Positions 4,541-49,825 of a stretch of 64,000 nucleotides of DNA are shown here, one piece after another (within the stretch, counting starts at the first letter, position 1; every line of letters begins with the position of its first letter). The translations under genes were made by a program, and so were the position numbers. The notes below the pieces were generated by a model, which saw only the letters and a list, made by a program, of their open reading frames with translations, was not told the DNA's origin and did no database searches. The stretch is from Zingiber officinale (taxonomy: Eukaryota; Streptophyta; Magnoliopsida; Zingiberales; Zingiberaceae), in assembly GCF_018446385.1 (NCBI RefSeq), contig NC_055988.1, positions 63,575,788 to 63,639,787 on the forward strand. The letters are read 5' to 3'.

Positions 4541-4689
4541 GATGGAGTTAAATTAATCTTAATTTTAAAGATGATTTTAAGTTTAAGAATATTATCTCTA
4601 AATTTGTGGAACATAATCATGTTTGAATTTTAAAGAATTGTTAAGTTGGAATTATATTAAAGTTGATTTAAATTTGAACAATTTATTTG

Positions 4690-5065
4690 AATTTGATTTG
4701 AGTTGATTTAAGATTCATCTAGTTTGATTTAAGTTTGATTAGATTTGATTTAAGTTCGATCAGATTTGATTTAAGTTTGATCAGATTTGATTTAAGTTAG
4801 ATCTGGCTTAATTTAAGTTTGATCTGGTTTGATTTGAGACTGATCCAATATGATTTAAGTTTGATCTGGTTTGATTTAAGTTTGATCTATTTTGATTTAA
4901 GCTTGATCAGATTTGATATAAGTTTGATCTGGTTTGATTTGAGCTTGATCAGATTTGATTTAAGTTTGATCTGGTTTGATTTGAGCTTGATCTAGTTTCA
5001 TTTATGTTTGATCTGGTTCAATTTGAGTTTGATCAGGGTTGAGTTAAGTCTAATTTAAGATTGAT
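4690..5065. repeat. About 21-bp tandem repeat
   Basis: Variants of TTTGATTTAAGTTTGATC followed by TGG, AGA or TAG repeat about 17 times. The array is low-complexity and T-rich, with no coding potential. Diverging copies trail into the flanks at 4620-4690 and 5065-5090. Confidence 0.85.
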
Positions 5066-8510: not shown

Positions 8511-8937
8511 ATGTGCGTAGATTGTATACACTTGTTTAACATGTTTTGACACACATTACTATATTTTATGCATGATTTATCTATGCATTTTCATGCTCCT
8601 TGCTTACTTTTAGCATATTTACTCTTTCTTATTCGGAGAGCTGCTCTTGTGTGTTTTCTGTCTACAGGGGTCAAATTTGGAGAAGAATTGATGTTCGTAG
8701 TCAATTCAACAATCAAATGGAGGAAAATGACACTAGCCATGAGTACCACACGGCCATGGCAAAGGAAAATGACCTTGGCCGTGTGAAGCTGGTTGGTCGT
8801 GTAGCTTCAGCAGAGAAAGAGAATGGCACGGCCGTGTGAGAGCCACACGGTTGTGTCACTTTTGAAGCTAATCCAGAACACGACCGTGTGGATCTACACG
8901 GTCGTGTGACATTTCCAGAGGCAGAACATTGCTAGGT
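8511..8937 (+). repeat. Element A 5' LTR, part 1
   Basis: It matches the start of A's 3' LTR (25281-25437, then 30867 on). It runs across the point where C is inserted in the 3' copy, giving an empty-site control: TCTACAGGGGTC at 8660-8672 is uninterrupted. It ends at GCTAGGT, where element B starts. Palindromic CACGGTCGTG words occur from about 8750. Confidence 0.88.
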
Positions 8938-9217
8938 TGTTGCACGGTCGTGCACTTCTTCTCTTCTATTTGGCCACACGGTCGTGCAAGGTTTGCACAC
9001 CCGTGTTCTCTGGCTCGCTCCGGTGCATCAACAAACACTGTTTTTGCTCTAAAAGTTATCCCTGTCAACACAAAACCAAACAAAGAGCAGATATCCGTAC
9101 AAAAGAGTATATATGATAAATACATGATAAAAGAGGCGATCATACAAAGAATATGTACGTATAAAGTAAGTGAATGTGTGTAAAAACATGCATAAACCAT
9201 CATAACATTTATGCACA
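8938..9217 (-). repeat. Element B 3' LTR, internally deleted
   Basis: Positions about 8946-9217 match 17768-18041 of B's 5' LTR, including the CTCTGGCTCGCTCCGG block and the terminal TTTATGCACA. About 1.2 kb, including the TATA region, is missing next to the TGTT terminus. The copy is about 280 bp against 1478 bp for the other LTR. Confidence 0.75.
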
Positions 9218-11821: not shown

Positions 11822-12190
11822 GTGCTCTAATAAATCAAGGGTGTGGGTCGGGCCGTGTAGGGTTGTACGACCCCTCCATGGCACAGCCGTGCCAATTGGC
11901 ACGACCCCATCTTTTCTCCACTCGGCCGAAGTTGCACGGTCGTGCCAATTGGCACGACCCAGTCCTTCCCCTTCTCTGGTCTTGTCTCACGACCGTCCCA
12001 ATTGGCACGGCCTGAGCTTTCTCCTTCTCTGGCAGTCTCACACGGCCATGCCAATTGGCATGGCTTGTGTCCTTCCTCTCTCTGCACAGGCCACACGGTC
12101 GTGCAGGGCTACATGGCCCATGGCCTTCATCCTTCTGTTGGCTTCGCATGGCCTTGTGGGATCACACCGCCGACTCCTTTAGGCTCACGG
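11822..12190. promoter_or_regulatory. 53-bp-periodic palindrome array upstream of ORF1 (B)
   Basis: Near-perfect copies of GTGCCAATTGGCAC start at 11889, 11942, 11995 and 12048, and a degenerate one at 12101, all exactly 53 bp apart. Each is flanked by CACGG or CCGTG half-sites. The array lies 140-510 bp upstream of the ORF1 start (11682, minus strand). The GC-rich frames across it give meaningless HGRANWHGR-type repeats. A regulatory role is inferred from position and spacing only. Confidence 0.7.
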
Positions 12191-12390
12191 TGACTCGCCG
12201 TGAGCATTTCGACGTCAGAGGAACCGAAAGAGCAAATACCCAAAAATGCTCACGACCAGCTCACGAAGGCTCAGCACATCCTGAAAGCAAATACCCAAAA
12301 ATAAAGAAATAATAAAAGTGTTCGACTTAAACTCACTAGAGAAATAAAATGACAAAAGGAATGATGAACTAAAATTAAAGAAAATCCATG

Positions 12391-17530: not shown

Positions 17531-17554
17531 GGCTAGGGTGCGGCGCGGCAGCAC

Positions 17555-17830
17555 GCCCGTGCAAGGATGGCACGGCCGTGCCATTTCTTGGCTCTAGATG
17601 CATTGCACGGCCGTGCCAATTGGCACGACCGTGTGATGTTGGGACTCGGCTTCTGGGGACACGGCCGTGTAGGGTTGCACAGCCGTGTGCTACTTGGTCT
17701 CGGTCATGGGGGGTACAGCCGTGCAATTTTGCACGGTCGTGTTCTGATCTGTCTCTGGTTTAGCCGCACGACCATGCACTTCTTCTCTTCTGTTTGGCCA
17801 CACGACCATGCAAGGTTTACACGATCGTGT
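17555..17830. promoter_or_regulatory. Palindrome cluster in U3 of element B
   Basis: Dyads centred at about 17566, 17619.5, 17673.5 and 17727.5 (spacing 53.5-54 bp) carry CACGGCCGTG or CACGGTCGTG half-sites, including a perfect GTGCCAATTGGCAC at 17613-17626. More irregular ones follow to 17830. They lie directly upstream of the LTR TATA box. Confidence 0.65.
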
Positions 17831-18041
17831 TCTCTGGCTCGCTCCGGTGCGTCGACAAACGTTGTTTTCACTCCGAAAGTTGTCCCTATCAACATAAAAT
17901 CAAATAAAGACCAGATATCCATACAAAAGAGTATATATGATGAATACATGATTAAAGAGGCGATCATACAAAGAATACATACATATAAAGCAAGTGAATA
18001 TGTGTAAAAATATGCATAAACCATCATAACATTTATGCACA

Positions 18042-19232: not shown

Positions 19233-19440
19233 CTGCGTCTATAACATTAGAGATTATCATTTAAGTTAAACTAAACTTTTCTTTGTTTTTCTTACATCTA
19301 ACTTGTAACTAGTTTTCTAATTCTGTTCTTTAATTTTTCTTTGCATTCTTTTATTACATTCTTTTATTGTTTTTGTTGTGAATCAAATTCTTTGGTTCTT
19401 TATTCTTTATAAATCAAATTTTGCAATCTTGTTCTTGTGT

Positions 19441-20625
19441 ATGCAAAGATCTAATTTTGCAGGAGATTTATTTCCTCTTGATCCTGAAATTGATAGAACC
19501 TTTCATAGAATGAAAACCTCACAAAGACAACAAGAAGATCAAGAACACTTAAACATGGCGAACAAACCACTTAAAGATTATGCAGCACCATATGCTAGAG
19601 GGCTTCGTTCAAGTATTAATAGACTATCTATTAAAGCCAATAATTTTGAGATAAAGCCTGCAATAATCACTATGGTGCAACAAAATCAATTTGGTGGAGG
19701 ATCGCATGAAGATCCTAATCAACACTTGGAAGTTTTCTATGAAATCTGCGGTACCATGAAAATGAATGGTGTACCTTCAGAAGCAGTGAGATTATTACGA
19801 GATAGAGCTAAACAATGGTTGAATTCTTTAGCTCCAAATAGCATTACCACTTGGGAGCAATGTGAGCAGCAATTCTTAGACAAGTTCTATCTTCCAAGTA
19901 AGACAGCTCATATAAGAAATCTTATTGCAAGCTTTAGACAGTCAGACTCAGAATCCTTATTTGAAGCATGGGATAGATACAATAATATGCTCAGACAATG
20001 CCCACATCACGGATTAGAGAAGTGGTTAGTGTTGCACACATTTTATAATGCCATCAACTACCATACTAAGGTGTCCCTAGATTCAACTGCTGGAGGGGCA
20101 CTTATGAGTAAGAGTTTAGATGAGGCTGAAGATATAATTGAAAGTGTAGCACAGAATCATCATCAATGGGCAGCTGAAAGAAGTGGAGGCTATTCTTATT
20201 CAAACCCAACAAAGGCATCAGGGAAATTTCATGTAGATGCAATCACTATGATGTCTGCAAAACTGGATGCTCTTACAAAGAAGCTAGAAAATATGGGAAC
20301 AAGTACTAGTACAGTCAATGCCATTGTATGTTGTTGTGAAACATATGGGAGTTCTGATCATGCTCAAGGCTCATGTCCTCTAGGAGCTATCTCAGCACAA
20401 ATCAATCAATTAGAACAATGTGATACTATCATGAGCTATAATCAGAGACAGAACAATCCATATTTAAACACAAACAACCCTAGGTGGAAGAATCATCCTA
20501 ATTTTTCCTATAGAAACAATCAAGAACAAGGACCATCTATGGGGGCAAGGCCAAGTTTCCAACCTGGGCAACAAAAATTTCCAACAACAACTACCTTCTC
20601 AAGGCTATCAATCTTCTATAATTGA
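19441..20625 (+). CDS. gag: Element A gag
   Basis: Capsid protein that would package element RNA in the cytoplasm. The first ATG in frame is 19441 (the open frame extends upstream only through non-ATG codons), giving about 394 residues. The retrotransposon gag domain spans roughly residues 90-230: EICGTMKMNGVPSEAVRLL, then RDRAKQWLNSLAPNSITTW, FLDKFYLPSKTAHIRN and LFEAWDRYNNMLRQCPHHG. Compared with the B copy, about six residues are missing between the VRLL and RDRAKQW words. A knuckle-like CCCETYGSSDHAQGSC lies near residue 300. The frame stops at 20625 but is followed by gag-like sequence with in-frame stops, so the gag-protease fusion is broken. Confidence 0.85.
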   Translation: MQRSNFAGDLFPLDPEIDRTFHRMKTSQRQQEDQEHLNMANKPLKDYAAPYARGLRSSINRLSIKANNFEIKPAIITMVQQNQFGGGSHEDPNQHLEVFYEICGTMKMNGVPSEAVRLLRDRAKQWLNSLAPNSITTWEQCEQQFLDKFYLPSKTAHIRNLIASFRQSDSESLFEAWDRYNNMLRQCPHHGLEKWLVLHTFYNAINYHTKVSLDSTAGGALMSKSLDEAEDIIESVAQNHHQWAAERSGGYSYSNPTKASGKFHVDAITMMSAKLDALTKKLENMGTSTSTVNAIVCCCETYGSSDHAQGSCPLGAISAQINQLEQCDTIMSYNQRQNNPYLNTNNPRWKNHPNFSYRNNQEQGPSMGARPSFQPGQQKFPTTTTFSRLSIFYN

Positions 20626-21592
20626 GAAAATGCTTGAGGAAATTATTTCCAGCCAAAATGAAATGAAGCAAGATATCTTGAAGTTAACTCAGAGAATGGA
20701 TAATTCTAACAAGCATTAGAAAATTTTAGATAGCCAAATTACCCAGTTAGATTCTTCATCTTTAAGAGCACCAGGATAATTTCCTCGAAAACCTGATGTT
20801 AATCCTATAGAGCACTGCAATCAAATTGAACTTAGGAGCGGATGGACCTTGGGGGATCCTCAAGTGACAGTTCCAAAAGGGATGAAAACTGAAGAAAAAC
20901 TCTCTCCTTCAGCACTTGAACCTATTCAAATTCAAGATGAAGAGGAGAGTACCAATAAGGTTGAAGAGACTCTTCCACTTAATCCACAAAATCAAGTAGT
21001 CCCTTTTCCTCAAAGATTAGTTATGCTGAAAAAAGATGAAGAGTTTGACAGATTTTTGGAAAAAGTTAAGGAGATTTGTGTTGAAGTTCCTTTAATTGAT
21101 GCAATCTTACAAATGCCAAAGTTTGGCAAATTCCTGAAGGACATCATGTCAAATAAAAGAAGAAGAGGAGACATTGAGACCATTGCTCTAATCGAGGAAT
21201 GTAGTACTTTGTTTGAAAAGAACACTTCCCCAAAGCTTAAAACTCCAGGGAGCTTTTATATTCCTTGCAATATAGGAGCTGAATTTATAGAAAAAACTTT
21301 TTGTGATTTGGGGGTAAGTGTTAGCCTCATTTCATATTCAATTTGTAATAAATTAGGTCTCAAAAACTTTAAACTTACTACCATGACACTACAATTAGCT
21401 GACCATTCTTGCAGGTATCCTATGGGTATTATAGAGGATGTGCCAGTAGAAGTTGGTGGGATCATAATTTCCACAGATTTTGTAGTACTCGACATGGTTG
21501 AAGACCCAAAGATCCCAATCATATTAGGAAGACCTTTTCTTGCAACAACTGGAGCAATAATTGATGTCAAAAAAGCTTTCATTGGTAATTAG
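20626..21592 (+). CDS. Element A aspartic protease region (gag-pol remnant)
   Basis: After several stops (to about 20790) a long frame carries the LRSGWTLGDP word that marks the gag-protease linker in Athila/Tat elements. The retropepsin-like domain follows at about 21250-21590: ALIEECSTLFEK upstream, the active-site motif as CDLGVSVSLISYSICNKLGL (DLG, as usual in this clade), VPVEVGGIIISTDFVVLDM, IPIILGRPFLATTGAIIDV. The reading frame ends at 21592, just where reverse transcriptase would follow. The next recognisable landmark, the GGGAGG word at 21860, normally lies after integrase, so all of RT-RNase H-integrase is deleted. Confidence 0.85.
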
Positions 21593-22040
21593 TAAGGAAA
21601 GGTTGGAGTATGATTTATCTAATTCTTCTAACCATGTCTCTTGTCTTTTAGTAAGTGTTTGCAGTGGGGTGGACGCTTATGAGCTAGAGGATTGAAATTT
21701 CCATCCTCATGGGAGGCTGTCGGACGAGGTACATGATCCAGCAAGTGATGTTGGGAGAAGGCCTCCCAACAAAAAATGAAAAAGACATCTGCCCTTCGAG
21801 GGCAAGAAAATGAAAAGAAAACGGGGATTAGTCAAGCTAAAGACCTTAAACAAGCTCTTCTTGGGAGGCAACCCAAGGGTTTCTTTAGTTAGTTTCAATT
21901 CATGTTTTCTTTTCATTAGTTAGTATTTTTATTTCGTTGTTGTTATTTGTTTTTAGGTTGTATTTTGTTTCCATGAGCTGGCCATGATTAATTCATTGGC
22001 ATGGAAGCATGGGAGAAGTCAGAAATGGAGAAAATCATCT
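21593..22040 (+). other. Pol deletion point and conserved GGGAGG word (A)
   Basis: Only about 270 bp separate the protease stop from CTTGGGAGGCAACCCAA at 21860-21876. In B this interval holds some 3 kb of pol. No gene is present. The sequence after the word is T-rich. Confidence 0.7.
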
Positions 22041-22059
22041 AAGTTGAGCTAAACAGAGC

Positions 22060-22520
22060 TCGGTCGTGTTTCAGACACGGCCGTGTTAAGTCTACAGAAG
22101 AGGAGGAGTACACGGTCGTGTGCCATACACGGGCCGTGTGAACTTACCCAAGGAGGAGTCATTCTCGGTCGTGTATCAGACACGGTCGTGTGAAGATTCT
22201 AATGAAAAAAGATGCACTGCCCGTGTCCCATACACGGCCATGTAAGAATTCCCGAGAAGAAGAAGGATTCGTCCGTGTCTTAGACACGGCTGTGTGAGGC
22301 TAAATCAAGAAGGAAAAGAATTCGGACATGCATCACACACGATCGTGCAAAAGAAGCCAAGAGGAAGCCTGCATTGCCCGTGCCATTTGGCACGGCCGTG
22401 TGGACATACCCGAGAAGGAGGCACCTTGGGCCGTGTAGATCTACACGGTCGTGTGGAGCAACCCTACCTTAGTCTTGTCTATAAGACAAGGCCGTGTCTG
22501 GGTCGTGTCAGCTACACACC
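22060..22520. promoter_or_regulatory. 52.5-bp-periodic palindrome array upstream of ORF1 (A)
   Basis: Eight dyads, each 13-14 bp with GTGT and ACAC arms and CGG/CCG extensions, are centred at 22072, 22124, 22177, 22229, 22281, 22334, 22386.5 and 22439.5, a mean spacing of 52.5 bp. Linkers are purine-rich and not conserved in sequence. A further dyad CTTGTCT-ATA-AGACAAG lies at 22474-22490 and includes TATAAG. The ORF1 start is at 22754. The lengths are kept while the linker sequence varies, which suggests spacing matters; function is inferred. Confidence 0.75.
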
Positions 22521-22753
22521 CCCTCTCTCAACCCTTTCTAATCATCAACCTATCTTCATCAAACTCCCAGATCTAGATCTCTATTCTATTTTTCTCTACA
22601 AACTATCTCAGATCTAGATCTAAATAGTAATTTTCTTCTCCTATCTTCAAGATCTAATTATCTCCATTCCTAAGATCTCATTTCTTGAGATCTATTCTCT
22701 TGAGATCTTACTTCTCAAATCACAAAGCCTTTCCCTGCTTTGAACTTCACATC

Positions 22754-24235
22754 ATGTCTAATCTTTTGAAGAAACTTCATAAAGGAAGCGGTGGATCAAG
22801 CGGAGGAAGGGAGCCAACAAAGGAAAAAGGAAAGGAAAAGGTCACAAAGGGCAAAGGAAAGAGGATTTCACGCGATGAAGGTAACGACAATGAATTCAAT
22901 ATTATTTTTAGAAATGAAGATCATAAATCTAGATTTGATATTCTTGTCAATAGAAAGATTGTGTGTACACATTATATGGACCCAATTGTTTTGAATATTC
23001 TAGGAATTAGAGATGATGTAGATTGGATGATTGGGTCTCTTGATTGGAATGATATCATGTACACACATCTACCTACATATCCTCACATTATACTTGAGTT
23101 TTTGAGTTCACTAGATGTTCACTTTGCTAATGAGGATGACTACGTTGGCAAAATAACTTTTAGATTAATGAACCAAGAATTTCAGTGGACATTTAGTGAA
23201 TTCAATAATTATTTCGGATTGTCCACCGGTAGCTCTCGTAGGTTTGACTCTAGATTCAATTGGAATTATTTTTGGAATTCGATTACTGGATTGGATCAAC
23301 CCTATAAGCCTTCTAGAGCTAAAGCTTCCCATATGCAAACCCCCATTTTTAGGTATTTACATCGAGTTATGAATAAAATTATTTTTGGTAGAGAGGAAAG
23401 CGATGGAGTTGTTAGAAAAGTTGAACTTTATGCTTTGTGGGCTATGTTACATAAGGTTGATTTTGATTTCGATTTCCATTTCTTGCAAACCTTGGTGAGA
23501 GATGGGAAGGCATCCTCAAGATCGATTGTTTTTGGTGGTTTGATTACTCAAGTAGCTATAAGTTTGGGTTGTGATATAGATGAACTAGAGATCATTCATG
23601 GCAATAATATGATTGATATTGATACATGTCTTGCTATGAAAATGATTTGTCGGGATGAGAATGGCTTTGCTTTTCCTAGGAGGGATGGTTTTCCACTACC
23701 CCTTCCTTATCCCGAGCGGACTTCGGTTCACAACCCTACTAATTGGGTAATCACTGAAGTAGATCCTGAGAATGTTCCTTCTTTATTTGAGGATACTGAG
23801 CCCCACATTGAGCCCTCGTCATCTGGACACCCGCAGCCCTCTAGACATCTGGAACTTGCTAGGCATTCTTTCGCCTATGGTACGGGTCAGACCAGGTTTG
23901 ATTTTTCTGATTTTCGTGGATCTCTAGACTCACTTCATGAGAAATTGGAGGCCCAACGAGTAATGTTGGAGGGTCGCTTTACTTTATCATATGATTAGTT
24001 TAGAGAGGTGCAAGATCATTTTAAGTTTACGAGAAATTTTCAAAGTCAAGTGGCCGAGTTTGTTCAGGACTATGATATTGATCAAGCTAGGATGAGAGAA
24101 TTCATGCAGGGCATGAGTGTTACTTGTCAACAAGTGGATGCCCTCTATGAATATCATAAGTTCCTGAGTGAGACTCCAGGTTTTCCTATCGGTCGTTCAC
24201 GTAGACCCCCACCTCCTCCTCCACCACCATATTGA
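22754..24235 (+). CDS. Athila ORF1-like protein of element A (one stop codon)
   Basis: The start ATG at 22754 is chosen because B's homologue begins with the same MSN. The N-terminus is basic and Gly/Lys-rich (residues 1-45). The conserved domain follows: MDPIVLNILGIRDDVDWMIG, THLPTYPHIILEFLSSLDVH, FRLMNQEFQWTFSEFNNYFG, PIFRYLHRVMNKIIFGREES and SIVFGGLITQVAISLGCDI. A single TAG at 23996-23998 splits the frame. The same frame then continues to 24235 with YDIDQARMREFMQGMSVTC and ends in eight prolines and a tyrosine. This is the Athila ORF1 / plant transposon protein family. No signal peptide or membrane segment is seen, so an envelope role is not supported here. Apart from the stop it is intact, unlike B's copy. 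Confidence 0.82.
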
Positions 24236-30861: not shown

Positions 30862-32356
30862 ACAGGGGTCGAATTAGGAGAAGAATTGATGTTTATGGAC
30901 AATTCAATAATCAAATGGAGGAAGAAGACACTAGCCATGAGTGCCACACAGCCATGCCAAAGGAAAATGACCTTGGCCATGTGAAGTTGGCTAGCCATGC
31001 AGCTTCAGCAGAGAAGGAGAATGGCACGGTCGTATGAGAGCCACACAGTCGTGTCACTTTTGAAGCTAATCCAGAACACGGTCGTGTGGATCTACATTGT
31101 CGTGTAAGCCTTCCAGAGACCAAGCATTGCCTGCCCGTGTGCCACACTGTCGTGTGATATTTCCAGAGGCAGAACATTGCTAGGTCGTGTGGATCTGCAC
31201 GGCTGTGCAAGACATCCAGTGACAAATTAAAAGTATGGCACGACCATGTGAGAGTCACACATCCATGTGACTCTGGTCGAGAGGGAAGTAGGCAAGGCCA
31301 TGTGAGATTCACACGGCCATGCCACGGGCCATGTGGCGCCCAAACCCCTACTCTATATAAGGGTTTCTCCTCTTTTGAAAAGGAGGAGACTCTGCCTTTG
31401 GGGAGATGGAACCTTGAGGCTTTCCTTCACCTTTTGGGTGTTGATCTGGCGATTTCAAGGAGTTTTTCATCCAAGATTCGACTCCGGTAGCACGGATTGG
31501 TTCCGAAGATCACTCGTCGTCTTTAGATAAGCATTTCTTCTTTGTCTTCTTGATTGAGATCGAAATGTTTACGATCATCTTGTCTTCGGTTCTTTTCTCT
31601 TGTTTCATGGAGTAGATCTCCTTGTTCTAGGATGGAGGGAGTATTTGTGATGTGAATTGATGTATGAATTCATGGATTTGTCAACTTCTTATTTCAATGA
31701 TGTTGTTTTGTTTTGTATCAATTCAATCTTATATGGATTGTTGTGTTTGGATCAATTACCATTCTTGATTGGTTGTTTGTAATTCTTGTGGATCTTGTAG
31801 AGGAATTCTCTTGATTATATGACCGAGGGGTGTTGTGACAGGGATGCCCCGTTAACGGACATTTAGGGGACCACCTTGAAGGGTGATGCAAGAATCTACA
31901 AAGAAGAGGGATAGATGAATGCGCTGTACTCTATATCTTGATGTGAATTGATTAGTGATGAGTTTCTATGTTGTATGACCAAGAGGCGTCATGATAGGGT
32001 TGCCCCGTTAACAAACTTCATAGGGATCATTCTATTTAGTTTCTTAAGGTGTTTTCTGCAAAAGATAACCGACAACTTCTTGCAAACGCATGACAATTGA
32101 GGATAAGGTTGGTAGACCATATTACATTGATAAGTATCACAAAGAAACCAAATCTCCTAGAACTTCCATAAGACCTAGTTTCCTGCATTACCTTTCTATT
32201 TCTATTTTCTAGTTTTGGTTTTAGTCCGTGTAATTCTTGTTCGATTGTTTAGCTAATTCATTTTGATACATCTTTAGTGATTATAACCAGTCCCTGTGGA
32301 TACGATATCTTTTTGTATTACTGACGACGTATCCGTACACTTGCGAAGACGTAACA
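30862..32356 (+). repeat. Element A 3' LTR, part 2
   Basis: Resumes A's LTR after the ACAGG duplication. It includes palindromic words (30940-31330), a TATATAA box at 31354-31360, the paired GACCGAGGGG...CCCCGTTAACG motifs (31821-31870 and 31975-32020) and the end GACGTAACA. Confidence 0.92.
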
Positions 32357-48586: not shown

Positions 48587-49825
48587 TGTTGGGGTTTTAT
48601 CAAAGTCTCATATTAGAAATATTTGGTAAAGATCATAGGATTAAAAGGATACATGATATCTCCATTGGCATGAGGCATTTTGGGTATAACCCAAGAACAA
48701 AGCCATGAGGACCAATGCCCCAAGTGGACAATATCATGCCATTGTGCAGATATATAGACATCTTTTTGTACAACAAATGGTATCAGAGTCATGGTCCAAA
48801 TCAGATATCATGTGGGGTGGTCTTGAACGAAGTTAAGGGGAGGCTCGAAGTAGGTCAAGATGATCGGATGTTCGCAAGGAACCCGGAGTAGGTCAAGGTG
48901 ACCAGATGCTTGCGGGAAGGCCTCGAGCAGGTCAGGATGATCATATACTTACGGTGAAGCAAGTAGGTCAGGGTGACCGGATGCTCGCGGATAGGCCCGA
49001 AGTAGGTCAAGATTGACCGGATCCAGCAACTTACGGGGAAGCCCAGAACAGGTCAGGATGACCGAATACTTATGGGAAAGGCCCCGAAGCAGGTCAGGAT
49101 GACCGAATACTTATGGGAAAGGCCCCGAAGCAGGTCAGGATGACCGGATGCTCGCGGAGAGGCCTAGTGCAGGTCAGGATGATTGGATACTTACGGGGAG
49201 GCCTGGAGCAAGTCAAGGTGACCGGATACTTGCAGTGAGACAAGTAGGTCAGGATAACGGGATGCTCGTAGGAAGGCCTGAAGCAGGTCAAGGTGACCAC
49301 GGAGTAGGTCAAGGTGACCACGGAGTAGGTCAAGGGATGCTCTCACGGATAGACCCGAAGTAAGATCACGATTGACCGGATACTCGCGGGGAGGCCTGGG
49401 GCAGGTCAGGATAACTAAATGCTTGCGAGGAGGCTTAGAGCAGGTCAGGATGACTAGATGCTCGCGGGGAGGCGAGTAGGTCAAGGTGACTGGATGCTCG
49501 CAGGGAGGTCCGGAGTAGATCAAGGTGATCAGGTGTGGATGCTTGCGGGGAGGCCCATAGCAGATCAGAGTGACCAAATGCTCGCGGAAAAGTCCGGACC
49601 ATGAGAGTAATTGTGGTCCTTCGTTTATGGGAGGATTGTTGGGGTTCAATCAAAGTCTCAAATTGGAAAGATTTGGTAAAAATCATGGGGTTAAAAGTAT
49701 GCATGATATCTCTATTGACATGAAGTCTTTTGGGTAGAATCCAAGAGCTAAGCCATGAGGACCTAAATCAAAAGTGAATAATATCATATCATTGTCGAGA
49801 TATGTGGACATCCTTTTACATAATA
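48587..49825 (+). mobile_element. TRIM-like mini LTR element with internal tandem repeats
   Basis: Two direct repeats of about 190 bp begin TGTTGGGGTT (48587-48775 and 49637-about 49825) and share GATATCTC, AGCCATGAGGACC and AATATCAT. The first is followed after two bases by TGGTATCAGAG (48778-48788), a tRNA-Met primer site. The second is preceded by a purine run, TATGGGAGGA. The interior has no gag or pol and consists of GGTCAGGATGACCGGATG repeats. It fits a terminal-repeat retrotransposon in miniature. No target duplication was found. Confidence 0.78.
48800..49600. repeat. Tandem repeats inside the TRIM-like element (41-bp core unit)
   Basis: Two exact 41-bp units lie at 49050-49090 and 49091-49131. 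Around them about 16 diverged units of 40-55 bp share AGGTCARGRTGACC, GGATGCTCGCGG and GAGGCC words. Open minus-strand frames with PREHPVTLTC-type repeats are artefacts of this array. Confidence 0.85.

Follow-up and report, generated by a model that had tools for sequence, protein, structure and literature searches.

In element A, an LTR retrotransposon of Athila type, ORF1 is preceded by an internal array that is a diverged tandem repeat of about 53 bp. Profile matching of the repeats indicates that this array and a second one in the U3 region of the LTR are built from the same unit. The best supported reading, drawn from sequence comparison, is that the internal array makes up the upstream portion of an internal promoter for RNA polymerase II, which would probably give ORF1 a transcript of its own.

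The window, i.e. the whole 64,000-nucleotide stretch of plant DNA that was analysed, holds nested LTR retrotransposons. Element A lies on the forward strand. Its LTR segments, near 18.1-19.1 and 30.9-32.3 kb, match each other at 93-95%, and its 5' LTR is truncated in U3. The traits of the Athila lineage (Ty3/gypsy) are present in it, namely gag, protease, paired LTRs and a PF03078 frame downstream; RT and integrase are absent, element B (a second element of the window) has an RT/RNase H fragment, and the placement is by these traits. Between protease and ORF1 of element A lies a short landmark, followed by the array:

19378..20625, forward strand: gag frame of element A
20849..21592, forward strand: protease frame of element A, with no RT or integrase after the protease
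21857..21877, forward strand: short inverted motif, TTGGGAGG..AACCCA, upstream of the array and present in element B too
22062..22450, forward strand: dyad units 1-8 of the internal array, with a period of about 52.5 bp and three half-sites per unit
22472..22492, forward strand: dyad 9, with TATAAG (22480-22485), a candidate TATA box, in its loop
22500..22521, forward strand: dyad 10, which follows dyad 9 at 29 bp in 35 of 40 copies
22525..22753, forward strand: leader, pyrimidine-rich, G-poor and without ATG
22754..23998, forward strand: ORF1, ATHILA ORF-1 family (PF03078), E-value 1.7e-21

An earlier note on this DNA had placed the array behind a pol deletion. The deletion (21592-21877) is present, but it is not peculiar to this copy, as all 11 copies examined over that junction have it. 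The seven close copies (L002-L008) are all colinear across the junction, and so are all four copies at 82-86% identity (L048-L051), three of which begin close to the LTR end, the other one at 20027. Since it occurs in 11 of 11 copies, the deletion is a family trait, and, judging from the aligned copies, the order gag, protease, array and ORF1 is an old non-autonomous Athila layout and not a damaged copy. In L004 and L007, homology to ORF1 stops at nearly one place (window position 23010), which perhaps marks a further deletion derivative.

ATHILA ORF-1 is reported from 16% of surveyed Athila elements (PMC6317226), and a sunflower Athila ORF of ORF1 type is predicted to be nuclear (PMC11728184). 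Substitutions in ORF1 by codon position numbered 415, 439 and 408 over seven copies, among which L004-L007 aligned badly, and constraint was not seen in these counts; in L002, L003 and L008 the numbers were 71, 65 and 76. For ORF1 as a DNA-binding protein, three homologs were found, and the structural model had a mean pLDDT of 40.1, too poor for use.

The eight dyads and their mean spacing of 52.5 bp were found as first described, with centres at 22072, 22124, 22177, 22229, 22281, 22334, 22386.5 and 22439.5, a span of 367.5 bp. Nine matches to GTGY-N-RCAC, two of them overlapping, occur in 22040-22540; 2000 dinucleotide shuffles averaged 0.33 such matches and never had more than 4. The array continues past these dyads, as dyad 9 is centred at 22482 (a step of 42.5 bp) and dyad 10 at 22511 (29 bp). 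In each unit two CGTG-type half-sites are opposed, with about 5 bp between them, and a third comes right after the dyad. The half-sites within a unit are about 12, 5 and 17-18 bp apart, steps that do not bear out the helical phasing originally claimed; phasing of the array is a possibility. Tandem Repeats Finder reports 22059-22194 as a 53-bp repeat. The linkers had been described as differing in sequence while holding their lengths, and linkers aligning without gaps, as in a plain tandem repeat, had been named as evidence to the contrary. Their lengths are indeed kept, but the linkers are related, and the contrary evidence was found by half: they run in register, though at low identity, with a common purine block (column identity about 0.5-0.7) among other columns that are mostly near random (about 0.2-0.4).

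Searching the genome from which the window comes (3.09 Gb) yielded 40 scored matches out of 1062 candidates, 74-100% identical; the 39 copies outside the window were all retrieved for comparison. The commonest spacing of each of the seven intervals between dyads 1-8 was found in 26 to 38 of the 40 copies, which are related by descent, such that counts over them are not independent. One unit is missing in 6 of the 40 copies, and the array measures 211 or 264 bp in another family, a difference of exactly 53 bp. The spacing probably arose by tandem duplication. Insertions and deletions of up to 12 nt, counted as distinct events in 36 of the 40 rows, number 4.5 per 100 bp in the array, 7.0 upstream, 8.5 in the leader and 8.4 in ORF1. 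That unit spacing is held (51-54 bp in 49 of 59 gaps across ATHILA loci) over near-random linkers suggests constraint. Selection on spacing, as the note proposed, is suggested by this regularity, although a tandem origin and indels only mildly fewer than in the flanks temper the claim.

These features bear on a rival account, in which the array is nothing more than one of the diverged tandem repeats that Athila and Tat elements commonly carry between pol and the 3' LTR, its period and palindromes being remnants of the founding unit with no role. The 53-bp repeat with its purine block in register, array lengths that differ by exactly one unit, the loss of one unit in some copies and the mild deficit of indels all agree with it. 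However, such a leftover would not keep its half-sites better than its linkers. Over 36 columns of half-site core the minor-letter fraction is 0.023, against 0.156 for linkers and 0.120 upstream in comparable context (p 1.5e-8 and 2.4e-8 vs core). Similarly, it would not keep CG better than outside the array, where CG variation is 0.273, against 0.137 in the arms (p 1.7e-6). Nor would it hold a conserved TATAAG at a fixed distance, and the recurrence of one unit both in U3 and before ORF1, in several families, also counts against it. A roleless repeat is, on this balance, unlikely.

The best-kept half-site letters are the TG/CA core, with CGG/CCG in many half-sites. Variation is high at the outer arm positions of the dyads (up to 0.34), so that the array often differs more between close copies than its flanks do; L009, for instance, is 98% identical upstream, 92% in the array, 99% in the leader and 98% in the ORF. 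The column statistics argue that the conserved thing in the array is each half-site by its letters, read as DNA. Alternatively, each unit might act as an RNA hairpin in the transcript, with a role in packaging, translation or splicing or as a precursor of small RNAs, and the element A array does fold more stably than its shuffles (z -5.3 in sense). However, the antisense strand folds comparably in element A (z -4.6) and better than sense in element B (z -7.4 against -4.7). Over ten dyads in 40 copies, the 3122 cells of arm pairs comprise 2360 Watson-Crick, 308 G-U, 287 A-C and 167 other pairs. Re-dealing the 3' letters leaves 2336 +/- 12 Watson-Crick pairs, and G-U is about equal to A-C; covariation in these dyads is thus almost nil. 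The window copy has one paired change of its own, in dyad 9, which is a single case. With folding and pair counts giving it no support, the RNA structure reading was rejected as very improbable. Palindrome repair by template switching, which rests on that same paired change, was set aside.

The TATAAG noted near the array and ahead of ORF1 was confirmed. It is exact in 36 of 40 copies (missing in L024, L025, L030 and L031) and lies inside ATAAGACA and TATAAGAC, the 8-mers with the highest conservation (0.966) across array and leader. From about 30 bp past TATAAG to the ORF1 ATG, pyrimidines make up 63-68% of the leader and G 5-8%, as measured in the 28 copies whose ORF1 starts with ATG and whose leader exceeds 150 bp. 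These copies hold five upstream ATGs against 23.3 expected from shuffling, and 23 of them have none; each copy has 5-13 ATGs in the 360 bp ahead of the array. The 12 of 40 copies left out of the count, with the start codon lost or the leader short, have 15 upstream ATGs, seven of them in L025.

Further arrays of the same type lie elsewhere in the window, in element B and in LTR sequences:

8700..8940, forward strand: A-like U3 fragment with the same unit
11827..11832, reverse strand: TATTAG at the array end of element B, a weak TATA-like candidate, in 36 of 40 copies
11860..12199, reverse strand: internal array of element B, with a 53-bp period
17540..17850, reverse strand: array in a B-type LTR, same unit, with steps of 53, 54 and 54 bp
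30925..31340, forward strand: U3 array in the 3' LTR of element A, same unit as the internal array
31354..31360, forward strand: LTR TATA box TATATAA, found in every one of 21 sequences, that of the window itself and those of 20 among the 39 other full U3 rows

The element B array was found in 40 scored matches of 876 candidates, and the 39 others were retrieved. A spacing of 53 bp is seen at three of its intervals, in 38, 37 and 31 of the 40 copies, and its half-site core is better conserved (0.043 vs 0.087, p 3e-4). A candidate core promoter motif stands at a fixed place in both families, TATAAG in that of element A and, as a weaker match, TATTAG in family B. The latter is not a standard TATA box, nor is it the best-conserved 8-mer of family B (0.978 vs 0.991 in the leader). 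Beside this array, at 12200-12260, three other loci match only in opposite orientation to the array (43-bp matches), perhaps owing to a small inversion between inverted repeats.

A genome search for the ATHILA family gave 92 scored matches of 4833 candidates, which reduced to 30 loci. At 26 of them there is a unit match that exceeds 10.1 bits, the top score among 600 shuffles; L111 (8.4 bits), L130, L136 and L138 had none above that level. Oriented clustering of the loci gave 10 groups, eight with the array ahead of ORF1 and two (L130; L136 and L138) without a unit match. Because several groups are close to element A or B, independent lineages are fewer than 10. Of the 59 gaps, taken between adjacent matches that score more than 5 bits, six are 42-44 bp, in addition to the 49 of 51-54 bp given above. 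The array could be measured in 16 of the 17 copies of the largest group, with lengths of 211 (four copies), 264 (nine) and 252 bp (three). In the same group, none of 16 copies has an ATG from 30 bp past TTTAAATA to the ORF1 ATG; the stretch is only 13 bp in L111.

A profile built from 12 internal units (eight of element A, four of element B) scores 22.8 and 17.4 bits in the U3 of element A, 22.3 in the 8.7-kb fragment and 26.3 in the B-type LTR. Matches in the U3 arrays are best on the same strand, where 100 shuffles of each give 8.8 bits or less, and the profile has no match in gag or in the leader and ORF. The 3' U3 array of element A has centres at 30984.5, 31037.5, 31089.5, 31142.5 and 31192.5, i.e. 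steps of 53, 52, 53 and 50 bp, and is less regular thereafter. Its half-site core is not significantly better conserved than its linkers (0.039 vs 0.057, p 0.08). At 8932-8942 and 18044, an A-like U3 fragment joins a B-type LTR fragment in opposite orientation, inside half-site arrays. Other tandem arrays lie at 974-2077 (36-bp units), 4663-5049 (21-bp units) and 48841-49528; the last has palindromic AGGTCA..TGACC-like units of about 39 bp and is possibly a similar array in an unrelated element.

In the promoter reading, a factor acting as a dimer or multimer would bind the dyads of CGTG-type half-sites, TATAAG at 22480 would place the start of transcription at about 22510, and ribosomes would reach the ORF1 ATG at 22754 by scanning an ATG-poor leader. 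Since the unit also precedes the LTR TATA box, one factor may serve both genomic RNA and ORF1 mRNA and so co-regulate them. The earlier note had offered a binding array for a dimeric protein or an internal promoter. The family-wide array, its conserved half-sites and TATAAG speak for this, while protein binding and the start site are what we infer from them. Splicing has been put forward for Athila env-like ORFs. The array might instead be bound by a chromatin or silencing factor, as an anti-silencing or CpG-island-like element and not as part of a promoter. Element-encoded proteins that bind motif arrays are known, as with VANC of VANDAL elements. Further, CG decay is weaker in the arms than outside the array, and Sirevirus motif clusters delimit predicted CpG islands (PMC2829016). 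We regard this alternative as quite unlikely, as it leaves the conserved TATAAG and the ORF1 leader unexplained, and it is compatible with the promoter reading. A bolder extension of the promoter reading is that Athila has two matched promoters, LTR and internal, sharing one phased dyad unit and one trans-acting factor, possibly the ORF1 protein. This would create a feedback loop between ORF1 and genomic RNA, kept by a long-lived non-autonomous lineage without RT and integrase; we hold it to be rather doubtful. In practical terms, TATAAG, the ATG-poor leader and the LTR-shared array define one exact place in which to search for a transcript start, and the unit shared by array and LTR is one motif with which to test for a common regulator.

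A literature search of open-licence papers did not find the array layout in Athila in print, and the motif letters, looked for in such papers, gave unrelated hits among the matches listed. A 2016 study reportedly dealt with Sirevirus LTR palindromes. For the expression of env-like or accessory ORFs in plants, splicing, stop-codon suppression and an internal promoter have all been proposed (PMC2829016). In Grande, the accessory gene23 is transcribed from a promoter of its own and, like Athila ORF1, lies between pol and the 3' LTR; however, Grande belongs to the Tat lineage, its gene is antisense, and the passages on it do not mention a phased dyad array (PMC7264820). Retand, like element A, carries a tandem array between pol and the 3' LTR, but its repeats are described as family-specific and of open origin and function, whereas the Athila unit is shared by families and by U3 (PMC11963269).

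The closest parallel is that of the Sireviruses (Ty1/copia), in which palindromic motifs lie upstream of ENV and in the LTR before the TATA box (PMC2829016). The idea that the layout was undescribed thus did not hold. The Sirevirus paper supports an internal ENV promoter, none having been conclusively identified (PMC2829016). As in element A, many palindromic copies precede both ENV, or an extra ORF, and the LTR TATA box. The Sirevirus repeated motifs have a CGG-CCG core; in the Athila unit, about 53 bp long with three CGTG-type half-sites, CGG/CCG occur in many half-sites, and the best-kept letters are TG/CA. The hosts differ, Ty1/copia in one case and, in the other, a Ty3/gypsy Athila with a conserved internal TATAAG; the array host is not a Sirevirus because its ORF1 is PF03078, of the Athila family. 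The Athila array is therefore a variant, in another superfamily, of the published Sirevirus layout, with a candidate core promoter added. If the promoter reading is true, Ty1/copia Sireviruses and Ty3/gypsy Athila elements would have reached the same two-promoter layout, by convergence or by exchange.
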